A stretch of DNA of 64,000 nt, taken from an uncultured Clostridia bacterium. GTDB taxonomy: Bacteria > Bacillota > Clostridia > UMGS1883. The stretch lies in assembly GCA_947589005.1 (NCBI GenBank), contig CANPZO010000001.1, positions 62,001 through 126,000 of the forward strand. The letters run 5' to 3'. Numbering within the stretch: the first letter of the stretch is position 1; every line of letters starts with the position of its first letter. Under the pieces are notes generated by a model. It saw only the letters and a program-made list of their open reading frames with translations. It was not told the DNA's origin and did no database searches. A program made the position numbers and the translations under genes. Below, one piece after another: positions 1,381 through 12,776 of this stretch.

Positions 1381-1953
1381 TCACGATATCGCCTCGCCGC
1401 CATGCAGTATCATATTTTCCACGATGGCGGCCATACGCGCGGGAGTTTCCTTCATTCCGCCCACAAGCCAGGCATGACAGACCCCTATACAGCCGGAAAC
1501 GATATAGTTGTAGAAATACTCGAAATCGTCGGCGCTTTTGATATTGAACATAGTTCGGGCGTCGGCAAGACATTTTTCCCGTACTATGTTTTTCAGCTTG
1601 TCCATAAAAGCCGCGTCTCCGTTTTTGCCGGTCATGACGCGGGCGAACTCGGCATTTTCCGCCAACAGGCTGAAAAGCTCGGTCAAAAGCGGGAAAAGCT
1701 CGTCCGTGCTTTCACTGTGAGCATGACTGTCCACAATTCGGTTGAACTTTTCTATTATCTCGTCCTGAAGCTGACGCGCCATGTCATAAATATCCCGATA
1801 ATGAAGATAAAATGTGCCCCGGTTTATATCGGCAAGCTCGGCTATCTCCCTTACGCTTATGGCGCTTAGAGGCTTTTGCATCAAAAGCCGGGCCAAGGCG
1901 TCCGTCATGAGCTTTTTTGTTTTGCGCACCCTGCGGTCCTCTTTTTCGGCCAT
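1381..1953 (-). CDS. TetR/AcrR family transcriptional repressor
   Basis: 190-residue TetR-type regulator. The N-terminal helix-turn-helix (about residues 10-55, with ISVREIAELADINRGTFY and the following LHYRD) is the classic TetR DNA-binding domain. The C-terminal half is a helical ligand/dimerization domain that I cannot assign to a ligand. I chose ATG 1953 because AGGAGG sits 7 nt upstream; an ATG seven codons earlier overlaps that ribosome-binding site. The gene is divergent from the giant MMPL-GLUG gene. The 150 bp between them carries overlapping promoters and a near-perfect 14 bp inverted repeat, so this protein probably represses itself and the transporter. TetR/MMPL pairs are a common arrangement; the specific target here is inference. 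Confidence 0.9.
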   Translation of the reverse strand: MAEKEDRRVRKTKKLMTDALARLLMQKPLSAISVREIAELADINRGTFYLHYRDIYDMARQLQDEIIEKFNRIVDSHAHSESTDELFPLLTELFSLLAENAEFARVMTGKNGDAAFMDKLKNIVREKCLADARTMFNIKSADDFEYFYNYIVSGCIGVCHAWLVGGMKETPARMAAIVENMILHGGEAIS

Positions 1954-1986
1954 AATTTCCCTCCTGCTCAACATTTATCCTTTGCG

Positions 1987-2103: not shown

Positions 2104-5100
2104 ATGAACAAACCTCTTGAAAAGGTGGCCGCGTTCATAGTTGACCGACGCAAGGGCTTTTATCTTATATACATACTTCTGACGATATTCAGCCTGTTTT
2201 CCACGGGCTGGGTCAAGGTGGACAACAACCTGACCGACTATTTGGACGAGGCTTCGGAGACCCGCCGCGGCCTGACCATGATGGACGAGGAATTCACCAC
2301 CTACGCCACGGCGGAGGTCATGGTGGACAACATCGCCTATTCCGACGCCGAAAAAATCAAAGATGAGCTGGAAAAAATCGAAGGCGTCAAGGAAATTGCC
2401 TTCGACGATACCAAGGCTCATTACAACGACGCGGCGGCGCTGTTTTCGGTGACCTTTGACGGCGAGGCCGACAACCCAATCTGTGAGACCGCCCTTGACA
2501 GTATCGAAAAGCGGCTTAAGGGCCGCGACCTTTACGTGTCTGCGGAGCTCGGCAACACAAAGGCCGATACCACCGCCGCGGAAATGCGGCTCGTCATGGT
2601 CATTGCCTGCGTCATAATACTTTCCGTGCTGACCCTGACCTCCCGCACCTATATGGAGATACCGGTGCTGGTAATCACCTTCGGTATGTCGGCCCTGCTG
2701 AACAAGGGAACAAACTTCATGTTCGGCACAATATCATTTATTTCCAACTCCATATCCGTGGTTTTACAGCTGGCGTTGGCCATAGATTACGCCATTATCC
2801 TCTGCCACCGCTACACCGAGGAAAGGGCGAGTCTCGAGCCAAGAGACGCCGTCGTTCAGGCCCTGTGCAAGGCCATACCCGAAATATCCGGCAGCTGTCT
2901 TACCACTCTTTCGGGCCTTGGCGCAATGAGCTTCATGCACTTCCGTTTGGGCTTCGACATGAGCATGGTAATGATAAAGGCCATAATCATAAGCATCATT
3001 ACCGTATTTACATTGATGCCGGGACTGCTGCTCTCCTTCAGCCCTCTTATCGACAAAACTCACCACCGCAGCTTTGTGCCCAAAATAACGGCCTGGAACG
3101 AGCTGGTCGTAAAGCTGCGCCATATTGCGCCCGTATTTTTTGCGGCCTTGATAGTTGTGTGCTTTTTCCTGTCCAAGTCCTGCCCTTATGTGTACAGCTA
3201 CACGGAGCTTTCCACCATAGCAAAAAACGACGCTCAGATAGCGCAGGAAATGATAGACGGCACCTTCAGCTCCACAAATACGCTGGCGGTTATCATTCCT
3301 TCCGGCGATTACGAAAAGGAGCAGGCGCTGACGGAGGAGCTGAAATCCTTTGACGAGGTTGACAGTGTTACCGCGCTGGCGTCGGTGGAGGCAAAGGACG
3401 GCTACAGCGTGGGCGACAAGCTGAGTCCGAGAGAATTTGCGGAGCTTACCGACATCGACGTGGAGCTTGTCAGGCTGGTTTACACGGCCTATGCCTCAAA
3501 GGAGGAAAACTACGGACGGATAGTAGGAGGCATCGACGACTATCGCATCGCCCTTGTAGATTTGTTCGATTTTGTCTATGACATGACCGAGGAGGGCTAT
3601 GTTGATTTGGACGAGGATACAGCCGGCACTCTGGCCGAGCTTGATGAGAAGCTCAGCGACGGCAAGCTCCAGCTGGAGGGCGACGACCACAGCCGCCTCG
3701 TGCTTAATTTGAACCTGCCCGAGGAAAGCGCCGAGACCTTCGAATTTCTGGGGACGGTCAGAACAACGGCGGAAAAGTACTACGACGACGTCACGCTGGC
3801 CGGCAACTCCACCAACGACTATGATTTGTCCTCCACCTTCGGCCACGACAACACCCTCATCAGCATACTGTCGATTTTGTTCGTCATGCTGGTGCTGTTC
3901 TTCACCTTCCAGTCGGCGGGCATACCCATAATACTGATTTTGGTGATACAGGGGAGCATATGGATAAACTTTTCCTTCCCCACCCTAATGGATAAGCCCC
4001 TATTCTTCATGAGCTATTTAATCGTCAGCTCCATACAGATGGGCGCGAACATAGACTATGCCATCGTCATAACCAACCGTTACACCGAGCTGCGGCATGA
4101 AATGTCCAAGCTGGATGCCATAAAGCAGTCGCTGGATATGGCTTTTCCCACGGTGTTCACCTCCGGCTCCATACTGGCGGCGGCGGGGGCGGCCATCGGA
4201 CTGCTGTCCTCCGAGCCGGCAATTTCCTCCATCGGCGTCTGCCTCAGCCGCGGAACGCTCATATCCATAGTTCTGGTAATGGGATTGCTGCCTCAGCTGC
4301 TTGTACTCGGGGATTTCTTCATAGACAAGACCTCCTTCTCCATCAAAAATATGCGCCGGGCCGGAGCGGGCGCCATGGCCGCGGTCATGGCCGTGGGCCT
4401 TGTACCCACTGTCAGGGCCGAGGACGGCACCGTTACGCTGTCCAGCCGCGAGGAGCTAATCGCTTTTGCCAAGGACTGCACTCTTGACACCTGGTCAATC
4501 GGCAAAACCGTCGAGCTGACGGCGGACATCGACATGGAGGACGTGACTCTCTCCCCCATACCCACCTTCGGCGGCACCTTCAACGGCAACGGGCATAAAA
4601 TCACCAACCTTTCGATAACCAAAAACGGCTCCTCCCTCGGTCTGTTCCGCTACATACAGGAAGGCGGCGGCGTGTACGGCCTGAACGTCAGCGGCAAGGT
4701 GACGCCCGGAGGGAGCAAAAACCACGTCGGCGGCATTGCCGGAGAAAACGCCGGCACGATACAAAACTGCACCTTCACCGGCATCGTGGAAGGCGAAAAC
4801 AATGTCGGCGGCATTGCCGGTAAAAACTCGGGACAGATAATTTCCTGCACCGTGAGCGGCAGCGTTGAGGGTCAGAACTCCACCGGCGGCATCGCCGGCA
4901 AAAACACGGGCTATATTTCCGGCTGCGAGAATAAGGCGGCGGTGAACACCTCTCCAAAGGATAAAAAGCGCAGTCTTTACGACATAGACACCGACGCCGG
5001 GGCCGTGGTGGAAAACATACTTTCAAGCCGAGAGGAAAACGAGGAGGAAAGCGTCCTGGGCCACACGGACTCCGGCGGCGTCACGGGGTACAACACGGGC

Positions 5101-7842
5101 ATAATTCAGGGCTGCACCAACTCGGCGAGCATAGGCTATCAGCATATAGGCTATAATGTCGGCGGCATTGCCGGCCGCCAGTCCGGATATATTCTCGGCT
5201 GCGTGAACAACGGCACCGTCCGTGGGCGCAAGGACGTCGGCGGCATCACCGGGCAGGCCGAGCCCTACATAACCCTGACCATATCGGAAACCACACTGGG
5301 CGAGGTCAAAAAAGAACTGGAAAATCTTGATAACATGATAAACGGTATGATATCCGACGCCAAGGACCTCAGCGGCGAGGCCGGCGCGTATCTTGACAGG
5401 ATAAGAGGCTACGCCGACAGCGCAAAAAGCGGCGCGGAGACCCTGGCCGACAGCGCCCATGATTTCGTAAATGACAACGTCGCCGAAATAAACGCTCTGT
5501 CGGCCTCGCTAAACGATACCGTCGGCAGGCTTGCGGATACTGCCGGCGAATTGGACAACGGCACGGAGCATATCGACAACGCCATGAATTATTTCTCCGA
5601 CGCCCTTGACGCGGTGGAGCTTAGTCTGCCTGATTTGAGCGACGAGCTGAGCGAGCTGAAAAGCGCCGATTTTACGGCTATCAGGGAGACGCTTGATGAA
5701 ATAAGTAAAGCGGAGGACGGCCTGAGCGCCGCCCGTTCCAGGGCAAGAAGTGCTCTTAGGGCCCTTGACAACGGCATAAGCGCAAAAAGCGAGGCCGACG
5801 AAAGGGCGGCGCTTACGGCGCTCGCCGCCGCGATAAGGGACGCCGCCGCCTCAAGAGAAGCCATGAAAGCCTCTCTTGAGATAATTGAAAGCATTATCAG
5901 CGGCCGGCCCGGGAGCTTTGACGACGTGCTTACAAACGGCGAGGCGATAGCCGAGCAGCTCAGGATGATAATTGACGGGCTTAAAAAAGGCGCCGCAGAC
6001 CTGCGGACGATATCGGACAGTATCGACGAACTGATTTTGAACACCGAGCTAAACTACGACTCCTTCCGCAAGGCCGCAAGACAGGCCGGAGAAGCGGTGG
6101 ACGATTTTGACGACGGCCTGGCGCAGATAAAAAACGGTCTTTCCGATTTGAGCGGCGTCCTTGACCGCGGAGAAGCCGGCCAAATACTGGACTCGGCGGA
6201 AAGCGCGGGAGAAAAAATAGACGATTTTGCCGACGAGGCGGAAGCCCAGCTGGCCGAGGCAAAAGAACTCATTGGCTCCGGTTTTAAGTCCTTGTCCTAC
6301 GCGGCGGAGGACATCGGCGGCGTTATGGACAGCGCCTCGGGCATTGTTTCGGACTTCGCCTCCGAGAACGACCCCAGGTTCGTCACTCCCGGCGAGGACT
6401 TCCGTGCGGCGGGCGACACTCTGTTTGACAGCTTCAGCGGGATATCGGAGGAGCTGTCCAATCTGCGCTCCGCCGTTTCCGATAAGGAAGGACTGGACAG
6501 TCTGAGCCAAATAAACGACCAGTTGGACCTCATCGCGGAGCTGGCCGCGGGAGAGCTCGACAACCTCGAAAACGACCGGAATGACGAGATATTTGTGGAC
6601 GCCTCCGACGAGAACATCGAAAGCTCCCGCCAGGGCAAGGTTGGCGGCTGCACCAACTCCGGCGCGGTGGAGGGTGACCGCAACGTGGGCGGAATTGCCG
6701 GCGCAATGGCGGTGGAATATGCCCGTGACCCGGAGGACGAAATAGAAAAGCCCGACGCGCTGAACTTCACCTACACCACCAAGGCAATTCTGGCTAACTG
6801 CGTGAACGACGGTGCGGTAACCGGAAAGAAGAACTGCGTGGGCGGAATTGTCGGGCTGGCCGACATAGGCACGGTGTACGAGTGCGAGAGCTACGGCCCG
6901 GCCAAAAGCACCTCAGGCAGCTACGTGGGCGGCATCACCGGACAGACCTCGGCCGGCCTCCGCCGCTGCTATTCCAAGGCGGCGGTCACCGGCAAAAAAT
7001 ATACCGGCGGCATCGCCGGCAAGGGCGAAAAACTGTCCGGGTGCATATCCCTTTCGGTTGTGGAGGGAGATGAATTTTCCGGCGCGGTGCTGGGCGGCTG
7101 CGGAGACAGGTCCGCCGTCACCGGCAACTATTTCATTGACCGCGGACTGGGCGGCATCGACGGCATAAGCTATTCCGGCATTGCCGAGCCCGCGGATTAC
7201 GGTTCCATCGCAAATACCGCCGGCGTTCCGGAGCGGCTGGTGAGCTTTTCCGTGACCTTTATCGCCGACGGAAAGGTAACCGACACTCAGGACATCATGT
7301 ACGGCAGCGACGTGGGACGCATAATATATCCGGCCGTGCCGGAAAAGCAGGGCTTCTTCGGCCGCTGGCCGGAGATAGAGGACAAAACCGTCACCTCCGA
7401 CATTGAGCTTGTATGCCGTTACACGCCGTATATTACCGTGATATCCAGCTCGGAAAAAAGCGGCGAACTGCCGCTGGCGCTGGCCGAGGGCAGCTTTACG
7501 GATGAGGCGGAGCTTCACGCACGCAAAAACGGCGGCGCCTATGACATCGAGCTCACCGGCGCCGATTTAAGCGATAACGGCTCGGTGACCCTCCGCCTCC
7601 TTGCTCCCGGCGGCAAGGGCGGCAAGACGGCCGCCGTAAGCATAAAAACCGGCGGAGGCTGGCGGCGCGTCCCCTCAAGTATGCGCGGCCAATACGCCGT
7701 ATTTGACATCACCGGCCCGACCGCCACGGTCCGCGTCACCTACGAACGCTCCGGCATACTTCTGCCCATGATAATACTGGCGGCGCTGATGCTCGCGGCG
7801 GCGGTCATCGCGGTTATCCGAAGGAGAAAGAAAAAGAAATAG
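2104..7842 (+). CDS. MMPL/RND-family permease fused to GLUG-repeat and coiled-coil extracellular region
   Basis: A single 1912-residue frame. Start ATG 2104 follows GGGGGA by 6 nt. Residues 1-745 are a complete MMPL-type RND permease: TM1 near 18-36, two halves, each with the MMPL signature (LAIDYAIILCHRYTEE near 224 and GANIDYAIVITNRYTE near 648) and extracytoplasmic loops. Near residue 750 there is a signal-peptide-like stretch (MRRAGAGAM, hydrophobic, ending TVRAED). After it come GLUG motifs (GGIAG/GGITG repeats, about 876-1056), a long helical coiled-coil region (about 1060-1500), a second GLUG block (about 1513-1670), an InlB-B-like unit (about 1713-1773) and a C-terminal membrane anchor ending RRRKKKK. 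The first part should sit in the membrane and export a hydrophobic or envelope substrate; the rest should be outside. It is probably controlled by the divergent TetR. Permease assignment is firm; the role of the fusion is inferred. Confidence 0.9.
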   Translation: MNKPLEKVAAFIVDRRKGFYLIYILLTIFSLFSTGWVKVDNNLTDYLDEASETRRGLTMMDEEFTTYATAEVMVDNIAYSDAEKIKDELEKIEGVKEIAFDDTKAHYNDAAALFSVTFDGEADNPICETALDSIEKRLKGRDLYVSAELGNTKADTTAAEMRLVMVIACVIILSVLTLTSRTYMEIPVLVITFGMSALLNKGTNFMFGTISFISNSISVVLQLALAIDYAIILCHRYTEERASLEPRDAVVQALCKAIPEISGSCLTTLSGLGAMSFMHFRLGFDMSMVMIKAIIISIITVFTLMPGLLLSFSPLIDKTHHRSFVPKITAWNELVVKLRHIAPVFFAALIVVCFFLSKSCPYVYSYTELSTIAKNDAQIAQEMIDGTFSSTNTLAVIIPSGDYEKEQALTEELKSFDEVDSVTALASVEAKDGYSVGDKLSPREFAELTDIDVELVRLVYTAYASKEENYGRIVGGIDDYRIALVDLFDFVYDMTEEGYVDLDEDTAGTLAELDEKLSDGKLQLEGDDHSRLVLNLNLPEESAETFEFLGTVRTTAEKYYDDVTLAGNSTNDYDLSSTFGHDNTLISILSILFVMLVLFFTFQSAGIPIILILVIQGSIWINFSFPTLMDKPLFFMSYLIVSSIQMGANIDYAIVITNRYTELRHEMSKLDAIKQSLDMAFPTVFTSGSILAAAGAAIGLLSSEPAISSIGVCLSRGTLISIVLVMGLLPQLLVLGDFFIDKTSFSIKNMRRAGAGAMAAVMAVGLVPTVRAEDGTVTLSSREELIAFAKDCTLDTWSIGKTVELTADIDMEDVTLSPIPTFGGTFNGNGHKITNLSITKNGSSLGLFRYIQEGGGVYGLNVSGKVTPGGSKNHVGGIAGENAGTIQNCTFTGIVEGENNVGGIAGKNSGQIISCTVSGSVEGQNSTGGIAGKNTGYISGCENKAAVNTSPKDKKRSLYDIDTDAGAVVENILSSREENEEESVLGHTDSGGVTGYNTGIIQGCTNSASIGYQHIGYNVGGIAGRQSGYILGCVNNGTVRGRKDVGGITGQAEPYITLTISETTLGEVKKELENLDNMINGMISDAKDLSGEAGAYLDRIRGYADSAKSGAETLADSAHDFVNDNVAEINALSASLNDTVGRLADTAGELDNGTEHIDNAMNYFSDALDAVELSLPDLSDELSELKSADFTAIRETLDEISKAEDGLSAARSRARSALRALDNGISAKSEADERAALTALAAAIRDAAASREAMKASLEIIESIISGRPGSFDDVLTNGEAIAEQLRMIIDGLKKGAADLRTISDSIDELILNTELNYDSFRKAARQAGEAVDDFDDGLAQIKNGLSDLSGVLDRGEAGQILDSAESAGEKIDDFADEAEAQLAEAKELIGSGFKSLSYAAEDIGGVMDSASGIVSDFASENDPRFVTPGEDFRAAGDTLFDSFSGISEELSNLRSAVSDKEGLDSLSQINDQLDLIAELAAGELDNLENDRNDEIFVDASDENIESSRQGKVGGCTNSGAVEGDRNVGGIAGAMAVEYARDPEDEIEKPDALNFTYTTKAILANCVNDGAVTGKKNCVGGIVGLADIGTVYECESYGPAKSTSGSYVGGITGQTSAGLRRCYSKAAVTGKKYTGGIAGKGEKLSGCISLSVVEGDEFSGAVLGGCGDRSAVTGNYFIDRGLGGIDGISYSGIAEPADYGSIANTAGVPERLVSFSVTFIADGKVTDTQDIMYGSDVGRIIYPAVPEKQGFFGRWPEIEDKTVTSDIELVCRYTPYITVISSSEKSGELPLALAEGSFTDEAELHARKNGGAYDIELTGADLSDNGSVTLRLLAPGGKGGKTAAVSIKTGGGWRRVPSSMRGQYAVFDITGPTATVRVTYERSGILLPMIILAALMLAAAVIAVIRRRKKKK

Positions 7843-8720: not shown

Positions 8721-10520
8721 TCATTCCAGCGCGAACCTGGTCTGGTACTCGTTCAGTATGGCGTCGTAAAGCTCACTGTTCTGGCTGCGCAGGTGGCTGA
8801 CATATTTGTGAGCGTCAATATCGCTGTCAATATTGCCCAGCTGTTCTATAGATATGCCCACGTTGCTGCAATGGTCGGATATGCGCTCAAGGTTGTTGAT
8901 TATATCCAGGAACGCTATTCCCGCCCGAACGCTGCAATTATTGTTTACCAGTCTGTCCACATGGCGGTCCTTGAGCACGTCGCGTATCTCGTCAACCACC
9001 GCCTCGCAGGGCTGTATCCGCATAGCCCTGCCGGAGTCGGAGTAACGCAGACCGTCCACGGCCAGAGTAAGGGACTCGCGCACGGCGGAAGCCATGGTGC
9101 CCAGCTCGTCCAACGCCCCGGGAGAGAGCGCCGCGCCCTCGCCGCTGTTCTTGAAATCACGGATGCAGTAGCAGATATTCAGCACATGGTCGCCAACGCG
9201 CTCGAGGTCGGTCACAACATGGAGAATAGTGGTAGCCGTATGCTTTTCGGCGTCGTTCAGGTGCTGGGCGACTATCTTGGTCACGTACTGAGAAATTCCG
9301 CTTTCCATTTTATCAATGTCGTTTTCGATGCCCTTGACCTTATCCACGAGCTCCATGCGGCCGTTTTCGACCACCTCCATGGACATATCAAAGCCCGAAA
9401 GGGCGGTCTCGGCCATTTTTATTACCTCACTCATGGCCTGGCGCAGGGCTATGGCCGGGGCGCGCATAAAGCGGTCGTCCATAAGGGCCAAATCCACGCC
9501 CTGGGCCTTGCCCTTTTCGCCCTTTTCGCCGTCGGGGATTATGAGACAGGCCACCTTAATAAAGAGGTTGCAGAAGGGCAGCAGCACAAGGGTGCTGAGT
9601 ATATTGAACACGGAGTGGATATTGGCCACGCCGTTGGTGGTGAGCCGCTTGTCCCAGAAGTCGAAGTGCAGGAACAAATCGAGGCCGTACATTACCACAA
9701 AGCACAGCACGACGCCGGTGACCTTGAATATAAGGTTAAGTATCGAAGCCCGGCGGGCCTCCTTGTTGGCCCCGGCGCCGGATATTATGGTCACCGCGCA
9801 GGTGCCGATATTGGCGCCCATTATTATGGGCAGGGCGTTGCTCCACGTGACAAGACCGGTAAAGGTGAACGCCTGCAAAATACCCACCGAGGCCGAGCTG
9901 GACTGAATGAGAGCGGTTATCAGCGCGCCGGCTATAATGCCGAGAATGGGGTTGCTTATGCCGGTGAAGATAGTCCGCATGACGGGCAAATCCTTCATTG
10001 CGGAAACCGAGTCGGTCATTATGCTCATGCCGATAAATATGGCGCCCAGACCCAGTATTATCTCGCCCACATAGACGCGGGTCTTGTTTTCCTTGCCCAT
10101 GAACATAATCAATACAATACCCGCCAGCAGCAGGAAATTTGCCAGGGTCGAGGGCTTGAACAGCCGCATATACCACTGTTCGCCGTCGATGCCCGCCAGC
10201 GACAGTATCTGAGCGGTTATGGTGGTGCCTATGTTGGCCCCCATTATAACCCCCGACGCCTGACGCAGGGTCATCATTCCGGCGTTTACAAAGCCGACCA
10301 CCATAACGGTAGTCGCGCCGCTGGACTGTATCAGGGCCGTCACCGCCGCGCCCACAAGCACGCCCTTGATAAGGTTGCTGGTAAGGTTTTCGATGAGCCG
10401 CTGCATACTGTCGCCGGCTACCTTTTCAAGGCCGCCGCTCATGACATTCATTCCGTAAAGGAACAGGGCGGCGCCTCCAAGCATTGTCAGCAGGCTGAAT
10501 ATTATATCGGTCATTGACAT
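8721..10520 (-). CDS. Na/Pi cotransporter family protein with PhoU-like C-terminal domain
   Basis: 599 residues. The N-terminal membrane part (about 1-320) has the two inverted Na/Pi-cotransporter repeats, each with the hallmark glutamine-serine motif (QSSGATTVM and QSSSASVGI). The C-terminal third (about 350-590) is a helical PhoU-like domain, the usual architecture of bacterial NptA/YjbB-type proteins. It should move phosphate across the cytoplasmic membrane with sodium; import versus export is not decided by sequence. Start ATG 10520 has AAGGGG 9 nt upstream. It lies downstream of glnN on the same strand, separated by a hairpin at 10565-10596 that may allow partial read-through. Confidence 0.9.
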   Translation of the reverse strand: MSMTDIIFSLLTMLGGAALFLYGMNVMSGGLEKVAGDSMQRLIENLTSNLIKGVLVGAAVTALIQSSGATTVMVVGFVNAGMMTLRQASGVIMGANIGTTITAQILSLAGIDGEQWYMRLFKPSTLANFLLLAGIVLIMFMGKENKTRVYVGEIILGLGAIFIGMSIMTDSVSAMKDLPVMRTIFTGISNPILGIIAGALITALIQSSSASVGILQAFTFTGLVTWSNALPIIMGANIGTCAVTIISGAGANKEARRASILNLIFKVTGVVLCFVVMYGLDLFLHFDFWDKRLTTNGVANIHSVFNILSTLVLLPFCNLFIKVACLIIPDGEKGEKGKAQGVDLALMDDRFMRAPAIALRQAMSEVIKMAETALSGFDMSMEVVENGRMELVDKVKGIENDIDKMESGISQYVTKIVAQHLNDAEKHTATTILHVVTDLERVGDHVLNICYCIRDFKNSGEGAALSPGALDELGTMASAVRESLTLAVDGLRYSDSGRAMRIQPCEAVVDEIRDVLKDRHVDRLVNNNCSVRAGIAFLDIINNLERISDHCSNVGISIEQLGNIDSDIDAHKYVSHLRSQNSELYDAILNEYQTRFALE

Positions 10521-10564
10521 AATCTTATCCCCTTCATTGGGTATTTTCGGCCGTTTCCCAAACT

Positions 10565-10596
10565 AAGGCCCAAAGTGTGGATACTCTTTGGGCCTT
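10565..10596 (-). terminator. hairpin between glnN and the Na/Pi cotransporter gene
   Basis: Perfect 11 bp stem (AAGGCCCAAAG with CTTTGGGCCTT) and a 10 nt loop. On the minus strand it is followed only by a short T-rich stretch (TTAGTTT), so it may be a weak terminator or an RNA-stability element. Confidence 0.5.
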
Positions 10597-10620
10597 AATG
10601 GTTATTATTTCAAATATGGA

Positions 10621-12720
10621 TTATTGATAGAACAAAATGTCGGCATAAGTCTCCATCGGCCAGAAGTCCTTGGGAACTATAAGCTCGAGAGCGTCGGCCG
10701 CGGCGCGCACGGCGTCCATGGCGGTGATGACGTTCTGCTTGTATGCCTTGGCCTGTTCGTCCAAATCCTCAATCGCATGAGACGCCTTGATAGCGCCGTC
10801 AAGGGTATCGGTAGCCTGATAGAGCTCCTTATAGAGGGGAGTCACCTTGGCAAGCTGCTCCTTCTCAACAAAGGCGTCCACGCCGATATCTTCCATAAGC
10901 GCCTTGGACTCGGCCAGATGAGCAACGTAGTCGCCCACGGCGGGAACTATTTCCTGCCGGGCCATATCGAGCATTGTGAGAGCCTCATAGTTTGTGGTCT
11001 TGACAAACTTTTCCATCTTTATCTCGTAGCGGCTCTTAAGCTCTACCTCACTGTATACGTTGTTCTCGCCGAAGAGCTTGATGGCCTTTTCGGTTATGTA
11101 AGCGGGATAGGCGTCGATGGACTGAGGCAGATTGGGCAGACCGCGGCGGGCGGCCTCCTCAACCCACTCCTTGCTGTAGCCGTCGCCGTTGAAGATGATG
11201 CGCTTGTTGGCGGTAAGGAGGTCCTTGATAATTACCTTGGCCTCGGCTTCAACATCGCCGGCGGCCTCGAGGCGGTCGGCTATCTTGCGGAGGCTGTCGG
11301 CCACTATGGTATTGATAACCGTGTTGGGGCCCGCGATGGAAGCGGAGGAGCCAACCATTCTGAATTCAAACTTATTGCCTGTGAAAGCGAAGGGAGAGGT
11401 GCGGTTTCTGTCGGTGGTGTCGCGGTCGATATTGGTGATGGCCGCCACGTCGAAGGCTACCTCCTCCTTGTCCTTGACGGAAGCCTCTCTGCCGGTTACA
11501 ACGGCGTCCACTACCTCGCCCAGCTCGTCGCCGAGATATACGGAAATAATGCTGGGAGGAGCCTCGTTGCCGCCGAGACGGTGGTCGTTGCCCACATTGG
11601 CCGCGCTGGCCCTGAGCAAATCGCCGTGTATATTGACGGCCTCGATGACCGCCGACAGGAAGAGCATGAAACGGGTGTTGTTCTGGGGATCCTTGCCGGG
11701 TTTGAGAAGGTTCTCGCCGCCGTCGGTGGAAAGGGCCCAGTTATTGTGCTTGCCACTGCCGTTGATGCCCTCGAAGGGCTTTTCGTGGAGCAGGCAGACC
11801 AAATCGTGACGCAGGGCCACGCGCTTAAGGGTCTCCATGACAAGCTGGTTGTGGTCGGTGGCGATGTTGGACTCGCTGTAAATGCAGGCCAGCTCGTGCT
11901 GACAGGGGGCGACCTCGTTATGCTCGGTCTTGGCAAAAACTCCCAGCTTGTAGAGCTCCATGTTCACGTCGTGCATGAACTTGGAAACGCGCTCGCGGAT
12001 AATTCCGAAGTAATGGTCCTCCATCTCCTGACCCTTGGGAGGCTTTGCGCCGAAAAGGGTGCGTCCGGTGATGAAGAGGTCCTTACGCGCGGCGTAGGAC
12101 TTTTTATCGATAAGAAAGTATTCCTGTTCCGCGCCCACGGTGGAAATGACACGGCGGGTCTCGGTGTCGCCAAGAGCGCGAAGAACTCTTAATGCCTGCT
12201 TGTTAATGGCCTCGGCGCTGCGCAGAAGAGGAGTTTTCTTGTCCAGAGCCTCGCCGGTGTATGAGCAGAACGCCGTAGGTATGCAAAGCACGGTAGTACC
12301 CTGATCCTTCTTAAGGAAGGCGGGAGATGAGCAGTCCCACGCCGTATAGCCTCTGGCCTCGAAGGTGGCGCGAATACCGCCGGAGGGGAAGCTGGAAGCG
12401 TCGGGCTCGCCCTTAATGAGAGAAGAACCGGTAAAGCTCATAATGGCACGGCAGTTGCCGTCCGGCTCGATAAATCCGTCATGCTTCTCGGCCGTTACGC
12501 CGGTGAGAGGCTGGAACCAGTGAGTGTAGTGGGTCGCGCCATGCTCCATGGCCCAGTTCTTCATGCACTCGGCGATGACGTCGGCGACCTCCTCCTGAAG
12601 GGGAGCGCCGGTCTTTACGGTCTTGCGGAACTCCTTATAGACCTTTTCGGGGAGTCTGTTTCTCATCACAGAGTCATTGAATACGTTGCATCCAAAGATA
12701 GAGGTAATGTTTTCTGCCAT
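10621..12720 (-). CDS. glnN: type III glutamine synthetase
   Basis: 699 residues, the length of GSIII (about 700) rather than GSI (about 450). It makes glutamine from glutamate, ammonia and ATP in the cytoplasm, as a large oligomer. Diagnostic stretches are KHNNWALSTDGGENLL, GAEQEYFL and NRTSPFAFTGNKFEFR. The last contains the conserved NRTSPFAF/FEFR segment of the catalytic core. Start ATG 12720 is preceded by AGGAGG 10 nt upstream; an in-frame ATG 39 nt earlier has no ribosome-binding site. A sigma-A-like promoter lies at 12777-12805. There is no GlnR or GlnB gene nearby, so nitrogen control is not visible from context. Confidence 0.95.
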   Translation of the reverse strand: MAENITSIFGCNVFNDSVMRNRLPEKVYKEFRKTVKTGAPLQEEVADVIAECMKNWAMEHGATHYTHWFQPLTGVTAEKHDGFIEPDGNCRAIMSFTGSSLIKGEPDASSFPSGGIRATFEARGYTAWDCSSPAFLKKDQGTTVLCIPTAFCSYTGEALDKKTPLLRSAEAINKQALRVLRALGDTETRRVISTVGAEQEYFLIDKKSYAARKDLFITGRTLFGAKPPKGQEMEDHYFGIIRERVSKFMHDVNMELYKLGVFAKTEHNEVAPCQHELACIYSESNIATDHNQLVMETLKRVALRHDLVCLLHEKPFEGINGSGKHNNWALSTDGGENLLKPGKDPQNNTRFMLFLSAVIEAVNIHGDLLRASAANVGNDHRLGGNEAPPSIISVYLGDELGEVVDAVVTGREASVKDKEEVAFDVAAITNIDRDTTDRNRTSPFAFTGNKFEFRMVGSSASIAGPNTVINTIVADSLRKIADRLEAAGDVEAEAKVIIKDLLTANKRIIFNGDGYSKEWVEEAARRGLPNLPQSIDAYPAYITEKAIKLFGENNVYSEVELKSRYEIKMEKFVKTTNYEALTMLDMARQEIVPAVGDYVAHLAESKALMEDIGVDAFVEKEQLAKVTPLYKELYQATDTLDGAIKASHAIEDLDEQAKAYKQNVITAMDAVRAAADALELIVPKDFWPMETYADILFYQ

Positions 12721-12776
12721 TATAATAATCCTCCTATATAAGCATATGCTCCCTTGCATACACTTTTTACAAATTC

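Follow-up and report, generated by a model that had tools for sequence, protein, structure and literature searches.

The described systems closest to the locus reported here are MmpL transporters with long helical extensions outside the membrane. The coiled-coil domain of MmpL5 is required for efflux and has been modeled as a tube of ~13 nm, and the transporter has both an operon partner and a repressor of its own (PMC12501195); the coiled coil of MmpL10 drives trimerization (PMC12183618). In both, the coiled coil lies within the permease, in its second porter domain. MmpL3 and HpnN have the same RND lipid-exporter fold, and we know of no β-helix/coiled-coil partner fused to either of them or encoded next to them. 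How might single-membrane MMPL-type pumps hand over hydrophobic cargo across a thick wall? The gene pair described here points to a candidate for the missing extracellular part.

The locus lies in an uncultured Clostridia bacterium (assembly GCA_947589005.1, contig CANPZO010000001.1, positions 62,001 to 126,000); this 64,000-nucleotide stretch, analyzed as a whole, is referred to as the window. Like MmpL4 and MmpL5 with MmpS, and like MmpL10, the system has an MMPL/RND core of 12 transmembrane (TM) helices with one porter domain per half, together with a long helical extension outside the membrane, although its permease is only ~14% identical to MmpL4/5. However, whereas MmpL5 and MmpL10 carry the coil in the permease, here it sits on a partner with a β-helix body and its own TM anchor, supplied in trans or, in the one genus with the fusion, in cis. 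With MmpL3/HpnN the permease further shares similar porter domains and Asp-Tyr pairs. The β-helix is common to the partner and the IgA1 proteases (3n6z, 6xjb), but the partner differs from these in having a helix inserted into the β-helix, a TM anchor and a tie to a permease, and no HExxH zinc metalloprotease motif occurs in the 1,912 residues of the fused protein. As had been supposed from the DNA alone, no described system has this architecture in the literature searched, which yielded no paper on MMPL together with GLUG. By sequence, the module appears to be an undescribed variant of a two-component RND/MMPL exporter with a dedicated outer subunit, the partner being without a curated family.

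Architecture of the fused protein

Positions 2104-7842 of the plus strand form a single open frame of 1,912 codons, with an ATG at 2104 and a stop codon ending at 7842. It encodes, in order, an MMPL permease, a signal-like segment, a GLUG β-helix with a helical insertion, β domains and a TM anchor:

1381..1974, minus strand: divergent TetR-family gene, likely regulator of the system (Pfam TetR_N and TetR_C_8; a TetR relative is found here in 27 of 71 loci)
2104..4341, plus strand: MMPL/RND permease half, residues 1-746, with 12 predicted TM helices and two porter domains (Pfam PF03176; AF2)
2785..2790, plus strand: D228-Y229, presumed TM4 proton-relay pair (invariant in 30 subfamily permeases; role by analogy to MmpL3)
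4054..4059, plus strand: D651-Y652, presumed TM10 proton-relay pair (Y652 invariant and D651 in at least 90% of 30 permeases; role by analogy to MmpL3)
4342..4350, plus strand: fusion point, where permease KTSFSIKN meets the ancestral start of the partner (comparison with unfused loci L049-L062)
4351..4419, plus strand: internal signal-peptide-like segment, residues 750-772, with putative signal-peptidase site VRA|E (sequence reading, relatives)
4420..5289, plus strand: N-terminal part of the GLUG β-helix, residues 773-1062 (Pfam Glug; AF2 pLDDT mostly >90; IgA1 protease β-helix, Z 25)
5290..6579, plus strand: helical/coiled-coil insertion, residues ~1063-1492 (AF2 helices of low to medium pLDDT; variable length, conserved base)
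6580..7209, plus strand: C-terminal part of the GLUG β-helix, residues ~1493-1702 (AF2; VIA-align)
7210..7749, plus strand: C-terminal β domains, residues ~1703-1882 (AF2 strands, pLDDT mostly 80-90)
7759..7839, plus strand: C-terminal TM anchor and basic cytoplasmic tail IRRRKKKK (hydrophobic peak of 2.87; helix in the AF2 model)

This layout agrees in most respects with the original prediction, which had recognized an uninterrupted frame of 1912 codons, a complete two-halved MMPL permease in its first 745 residues, a signal-peptide-like stretch at residue ~750 (nt 4351) and a C-terminal anchor. The open-reading-frame analysis and the Pfam MMPL and Glug matches bear out the frame and the permease, and the anchor is the strongest hydrophobic peak of the chain.

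By profile and predicted fold, the permease half is an ordinary MMPL member. PF03176 matches it in two stretches with 117.3 bits (gathering score 20.5), and an AF2 model of residues 1-746, built from 30 relatives, has the MmpL fold with pLDDT mostly 70-90 and 12 TM helices in two pseudo-repeats, each carrying one porter domain. The closest solved structures are MmpL4, MmpL5 and MmpL3 (Z ~42 over 656-662 residues, 14% identity). The ~209-residue loop between TM7 and TM8 is modeled as an α/β porter domain, and the model of the permease half contains no coiled-coil insertion in the second porter domain; the long helices sit in the partner half.

The partner half matches Pfam Glug (PF07581) above the gathering score (31.2 bits), and 35 of 40 relatives match it at E <= 0.01. 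In the AF2 model and VIA-align comparisons, the two GLUG blocks belong to a single right-handed β-helix, split by the helical insertion of ~430 residues. VIA-align places this β-helix closest to those of the IgA1 proteases of Bacteroides ovatus (3n6z; Z 25.1 over 239 residues, 23% identity) and pneumococcus (6xjb; Z 24.0), with 22-23% identity over 239-258 residues for both structures; the fold is common also to tailspikes, polygalacturonase and SRRP adhesins, which bind or cleave carbohydrates. A Foldseek search with the whole partner gave no match at E <= 0.001, no LPxTG motif occurs in the fused protein, and neither an HlyD/MFP adaptor family nor a curated NCBIfam family was among the partner's Pfam and NCBIfam matches; in NCBIfam, the only matches were to coiled coils and stayed below cut-off.

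The ~440 residues of coiled coil that had been predicted between two sets of GLUG repeats hold up only in part: the repeats and a clear helix are there, but a regular long-range coiled coil is not evident: analyzed for periodicity, the hydrophobic residues showed no heptad signal exceeding that of shuffled sequences. We rejected the coil's matches to SMC, myosin, MCE and tape-measure proteins as generic to coiled coils. The base of the coil (residues 1056-1155 and 1416-1475) is more conserved, while its distal part varies in sequence and length, with a coil of 329-584 residues in 46 proteins with placeable bounding motifs; a conserved base with a variable distal coil is the pattern to be expected if a stalk docks by an end that stays fixed. 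The length of this putative stalk differs even within the genus, the fused protein of one species (G002; L029:2650-8661) being ~90 residues longer owing to a longer coil.

Origin of the fusion

A species-genome collection scanned with the partner alignment yielded 283 relatives, and the best 80 of these 283 loci were analyzed. In all 80, a permease gene lies directly upstream of the partner on the same strand; five are fused, all from the genus of the window, whose own genome makes a sixth fused case. The 75 others, most of them from gut Clostridia, have the halves as two separate, neighboring genes with the permease leading, and their partner has its own signal peptide. The proposal that two ancestral genes, a permease and a secreted GLUG protein, had been joined in frame, to be checked by searching for the separated halves in other genomes, is supported by this arrangement in every other lineage found. 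The unfused partner mostly starts 4-41 nt ahead of the end of the permease stop codon, with a strong AGGAGG-like Shine-Dalgarno sequence inside the permease 3' end, as in translational coupling.

The nearest unfused clade (e.g. L062, L049, L051) suggests how the fusion came about. Its permeases end in a short tail, e.g. ...IGGGTDEE*, the partner lies in the +1 frame, and in L051 the equivalent of the fusion point is 37 nt from the partner start. At the fusion point of the window, the 3' tail, the stop codon and the Shine-Dalgarno sequence of the unfused operon are missing. Loss of a stretch of 3n+1 nucleotides would have removed tail, stop and ribosome site at once and joined the frames. The fused permeases group in a single clade (support 100), so one fusion event is enough to explain them; G008, from another genus of the family, has the two as separate genes, and outside the genus no independent fusion was found among 391 genomes of the class, 398 of the phylum or the best 80 loci. 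Judged from these genomes, the fusion is natural, lineage-specific and confined to the genus of the window.

Several observations on the unfused loci may be added. Distant unfused permeases (L035, L037, L039; L036:6200-6384) end in a Gly-rich tail, e.g. MRISGHVRGYISGMVDADLQGTVHGTINA, which resembles a few bactofilin-type β-helix rungs on the cytosolic side and gave no match in Pfam; in the clade nearest the fusion, a short IGGGTxEE tail stands in its place. The partner gene breaks at an A7 run in G008 (L037:7505-7560) and occupies two frames in G036 (L034:10400-11185), each probably an assembly error or one-off mutation. Programmed frameshifting in the partner gene was considered and rejected: there is no sign of it, the split in G008 sitting at the A7 run and the gene in G223 meeting a contig end. 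One unfused locus labeled Bacteroides (L106) groups with the Clostridia permeases, likely a binning error. The pair is also present in the cultured gut isolates Anaerotignum lactatifermentans DSM 14214, Flintibacter muris DSM 110149 and Evtepia gabavorous KLE1738.

Possible processing at the junction

What has become of the old signal? The segment MRRAGAGAMAAVMAVGLVPTVRA|EDG (residues 750-772) has a basic start, a short hydrophobic core, a Pro and a V/A-R-A|E site. We lean toward cleavage by signal peptidase I, which its sequence makes plausible, over use of the segment as an additional helix; the fused chain, instead of staying a 14-helix fusion for good, may be a polyprotein that signal peptidase cuts. 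There is precedent in FbcH of Bradyrhizobium, a cytochrome bc1 polyprotein in which a multi-TM protein is fused to its downstream operon partner via a cleaved internal signal peptide. The fused MMPL chain is built likewise, from a multi-TM protein and its downstream operon partner joined via an internal signal peptide, but FbcH belongs to a respiratory complex and is cleaved, while our chain belongs to a transporter and its cleavage is inferred only. The fusion constitutes a natural test of internal signal-peptide processing behind a polytopic membrane protein.

The main alternative, which we rate as a serious but distinctly less probable one, is that the chain stays uncleaved with 14 helices, the former signal serving as TM13 and the ectodomain being permanently held by the permease on one side and by the membrane on the other. 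The topology would fit, with a cytosolic MMPL C terminus, an N-in/C-out segment and an anchor with a basic tail, and the hydrophobicity of the segment is below that of the unfused signals, which a lost targeting role could explain. However, a crude hydrophobicity sum, used in place of a trained signal-peptide predictor, marks the segment as a poor TM helix, with an insertion value of +4.5 to +7 over 19 residues, compared with -4.1 to +0.7 for six unfused signals and -2.5 for the anchor. The Pro and the V/A-R-A|E site are retained in all six fused species despite synonymous codon changes (AGG/CGG/CGC; GCC/GCG), with the limit that VRA|E is no more strongly conserved than neighboring residues. 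The structure prediction that had been proposed for the junction gave a short helix only at the segment, with pLDDT < 50. These three points make it doubtful that the old signal now serves as an extra membrane helix, as the original prediction had it.

Functional link between permease and partner

Of 391 class genomes, 44 contain the permease subfamily, and the partner is present in exactly these 44, with neither family found without the other in this sample; since related genomes are included, these are not 44 independent events. A pairwise search found the partner in 43 of the 44, and an HMM in the last (G127, 552 bits); one further genome (G216) was rejected as having generic GLUG matches only. 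Beyond the class, the partner is present in five further phylum genomes among those sampled. Permease and partner distances correlate in a mirror-tree comparison (r = 0.90, 76 loci), as expected for co-inheritance, and the fusion in one genus is itself an argument for joint action of the halves. Upstream in 27 of the 71 loci with enough sequence is a divergent TetR gene akin to that of the window; no other convincing recurring neighbor was found around the loci. Genome comparison thus shows an MMPL gene and a gene for a predicted secreted, anchored GLUG β-helix protein to be a tightly overlapping pair across gut Clostridia, present in the same genomes. A permease constantly accompanied by a giant ectodomain protein, with which it has fused in one case, offers a clean, testable pair in cultured gut isolates.

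We consider it probable, though by no means certain, that the fused gene is a genus-specific natural fusion of a conserved two-gene export module whose products form one complex, the partner acting as stalk or conduit. The permease, with its RND fold and Asp-Tyr pairs, would draw on the proton gradient to extract a lipid or another amphiphile from the membrane. The partner would dock on its extracellular face via the conserved β-helix, and the helical insertion would project outward as stalk or conduit; of the two, 'conduit' is the weaker term, because confidence in the model is low over the insertion (block means 33-76). From the DNA alone, an exporter with its own surface stalk or scaffold had been proposed, which may span the thick wall and pass a lipid or polymer outward. 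The ancestral signal of the fused chain would still direct translocation of the ectodomain and then be cut by signal peptidase I, and the fusion would fix 1:1 synthesis and delivery of the halves. If uncut, the segment would be a weak 13th helix, with the ectodomain tethered at both ends.

It is unlikely that the pair is something other than an exporter with a stalk, namely a β-helix surface adhesin or wall-polymer binder placed by the permease, or an envelope sensor or scaffold. The kinship of the fold with IgA1 proteases and carbohydrate-binding or -cleaving β-helices would suit such a role, as would a neighborhood without a substrate clue. However, the permease has kept a full RND core with conserved proton-relay residues (D228-Y229 invariant and D651-Y652 nearly so among the 30 relatives) and is more constrained than the partner, and co-occurrence in 44 of 44 genomes speaks for a pump and its partner more than for a free adhesin. 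Returning to the export module, a bolder and still tentative extension, which we hold to be rather improbable as a whole, would be a class of two-subunit RND exporters in gut Clostridia, in which a β-helix/coiled-coil subunit on the permease forms a conduit through the thick wall, and which in one genus has become a self-processing polyprotein. If true, it would give single-membrane bacteria a counterpart of the TolC/adaptor and MmpL5-tube solutions.

Maintenance of the fused frame

The genus of the window comprises rabbit-gut Clostridia. Eight genomes were examined; six contain the frame, in one piece in five (G000, G001, G002, G003 and G005) and interrupted by contig ends in G007, and the other two contain neither half. 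In the five complete genes, with pS of ~0.6 and near saturation, pN/pS is 0.12 for the permease, 0.19 for the junction (residues 740-775), 0.27 for the signal segment, 0.25 for both β-helix parts, 0.44 for the coil and 0.54 for the anchor. By these ratios, purifying selection acts on the frame throughout the junction.

The ancestral start codon (ATG at 4351) is kept in the window alone, without a Shine-Dalgarno sequence, and is an Ile codon in the other five species. A later in-frame ATG (M758), found in five species and replaced by CTG in G002, is preceded by a weak GGAG at best; a start there would leave the signal without basic residues. No AGGAGG lies near the internal starts of the fused frame in the six species. 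That the frame is an artefact, created by frameshift or chimeric assembly, or that its 3' part is made solely from an internal start, is highly improbable: although the window comes from a draft genome of 38 contigs and M758 offers a possible start, the junction KTSFSIKN-[MI][RK][RH][AS]GAGA is common to all six species from separate assemblies, which excludes the error near nt 4300-4360 that had been raised as a possible refutation and effectively refutes the assembly version, and the selection on the frame, the lost ancestral start and the missing strong Shine-Dalgarno sequence make an internal start unlikely.

Two minor observations concern other genes of the same genome. Its other GLUG protein, of ~1,470 amino acids, lies at a contig end (contig C12; L026:31-4440), without a link to a permease. 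On the minus strand of the window (8721-12759), a frame of 712 amino acids resembling type III glutamine synthetase (10621-12759) adjoins a Na/phosphate-cotransporter-like frame of 599 amino acids (8721-10520), both named by reading alone.
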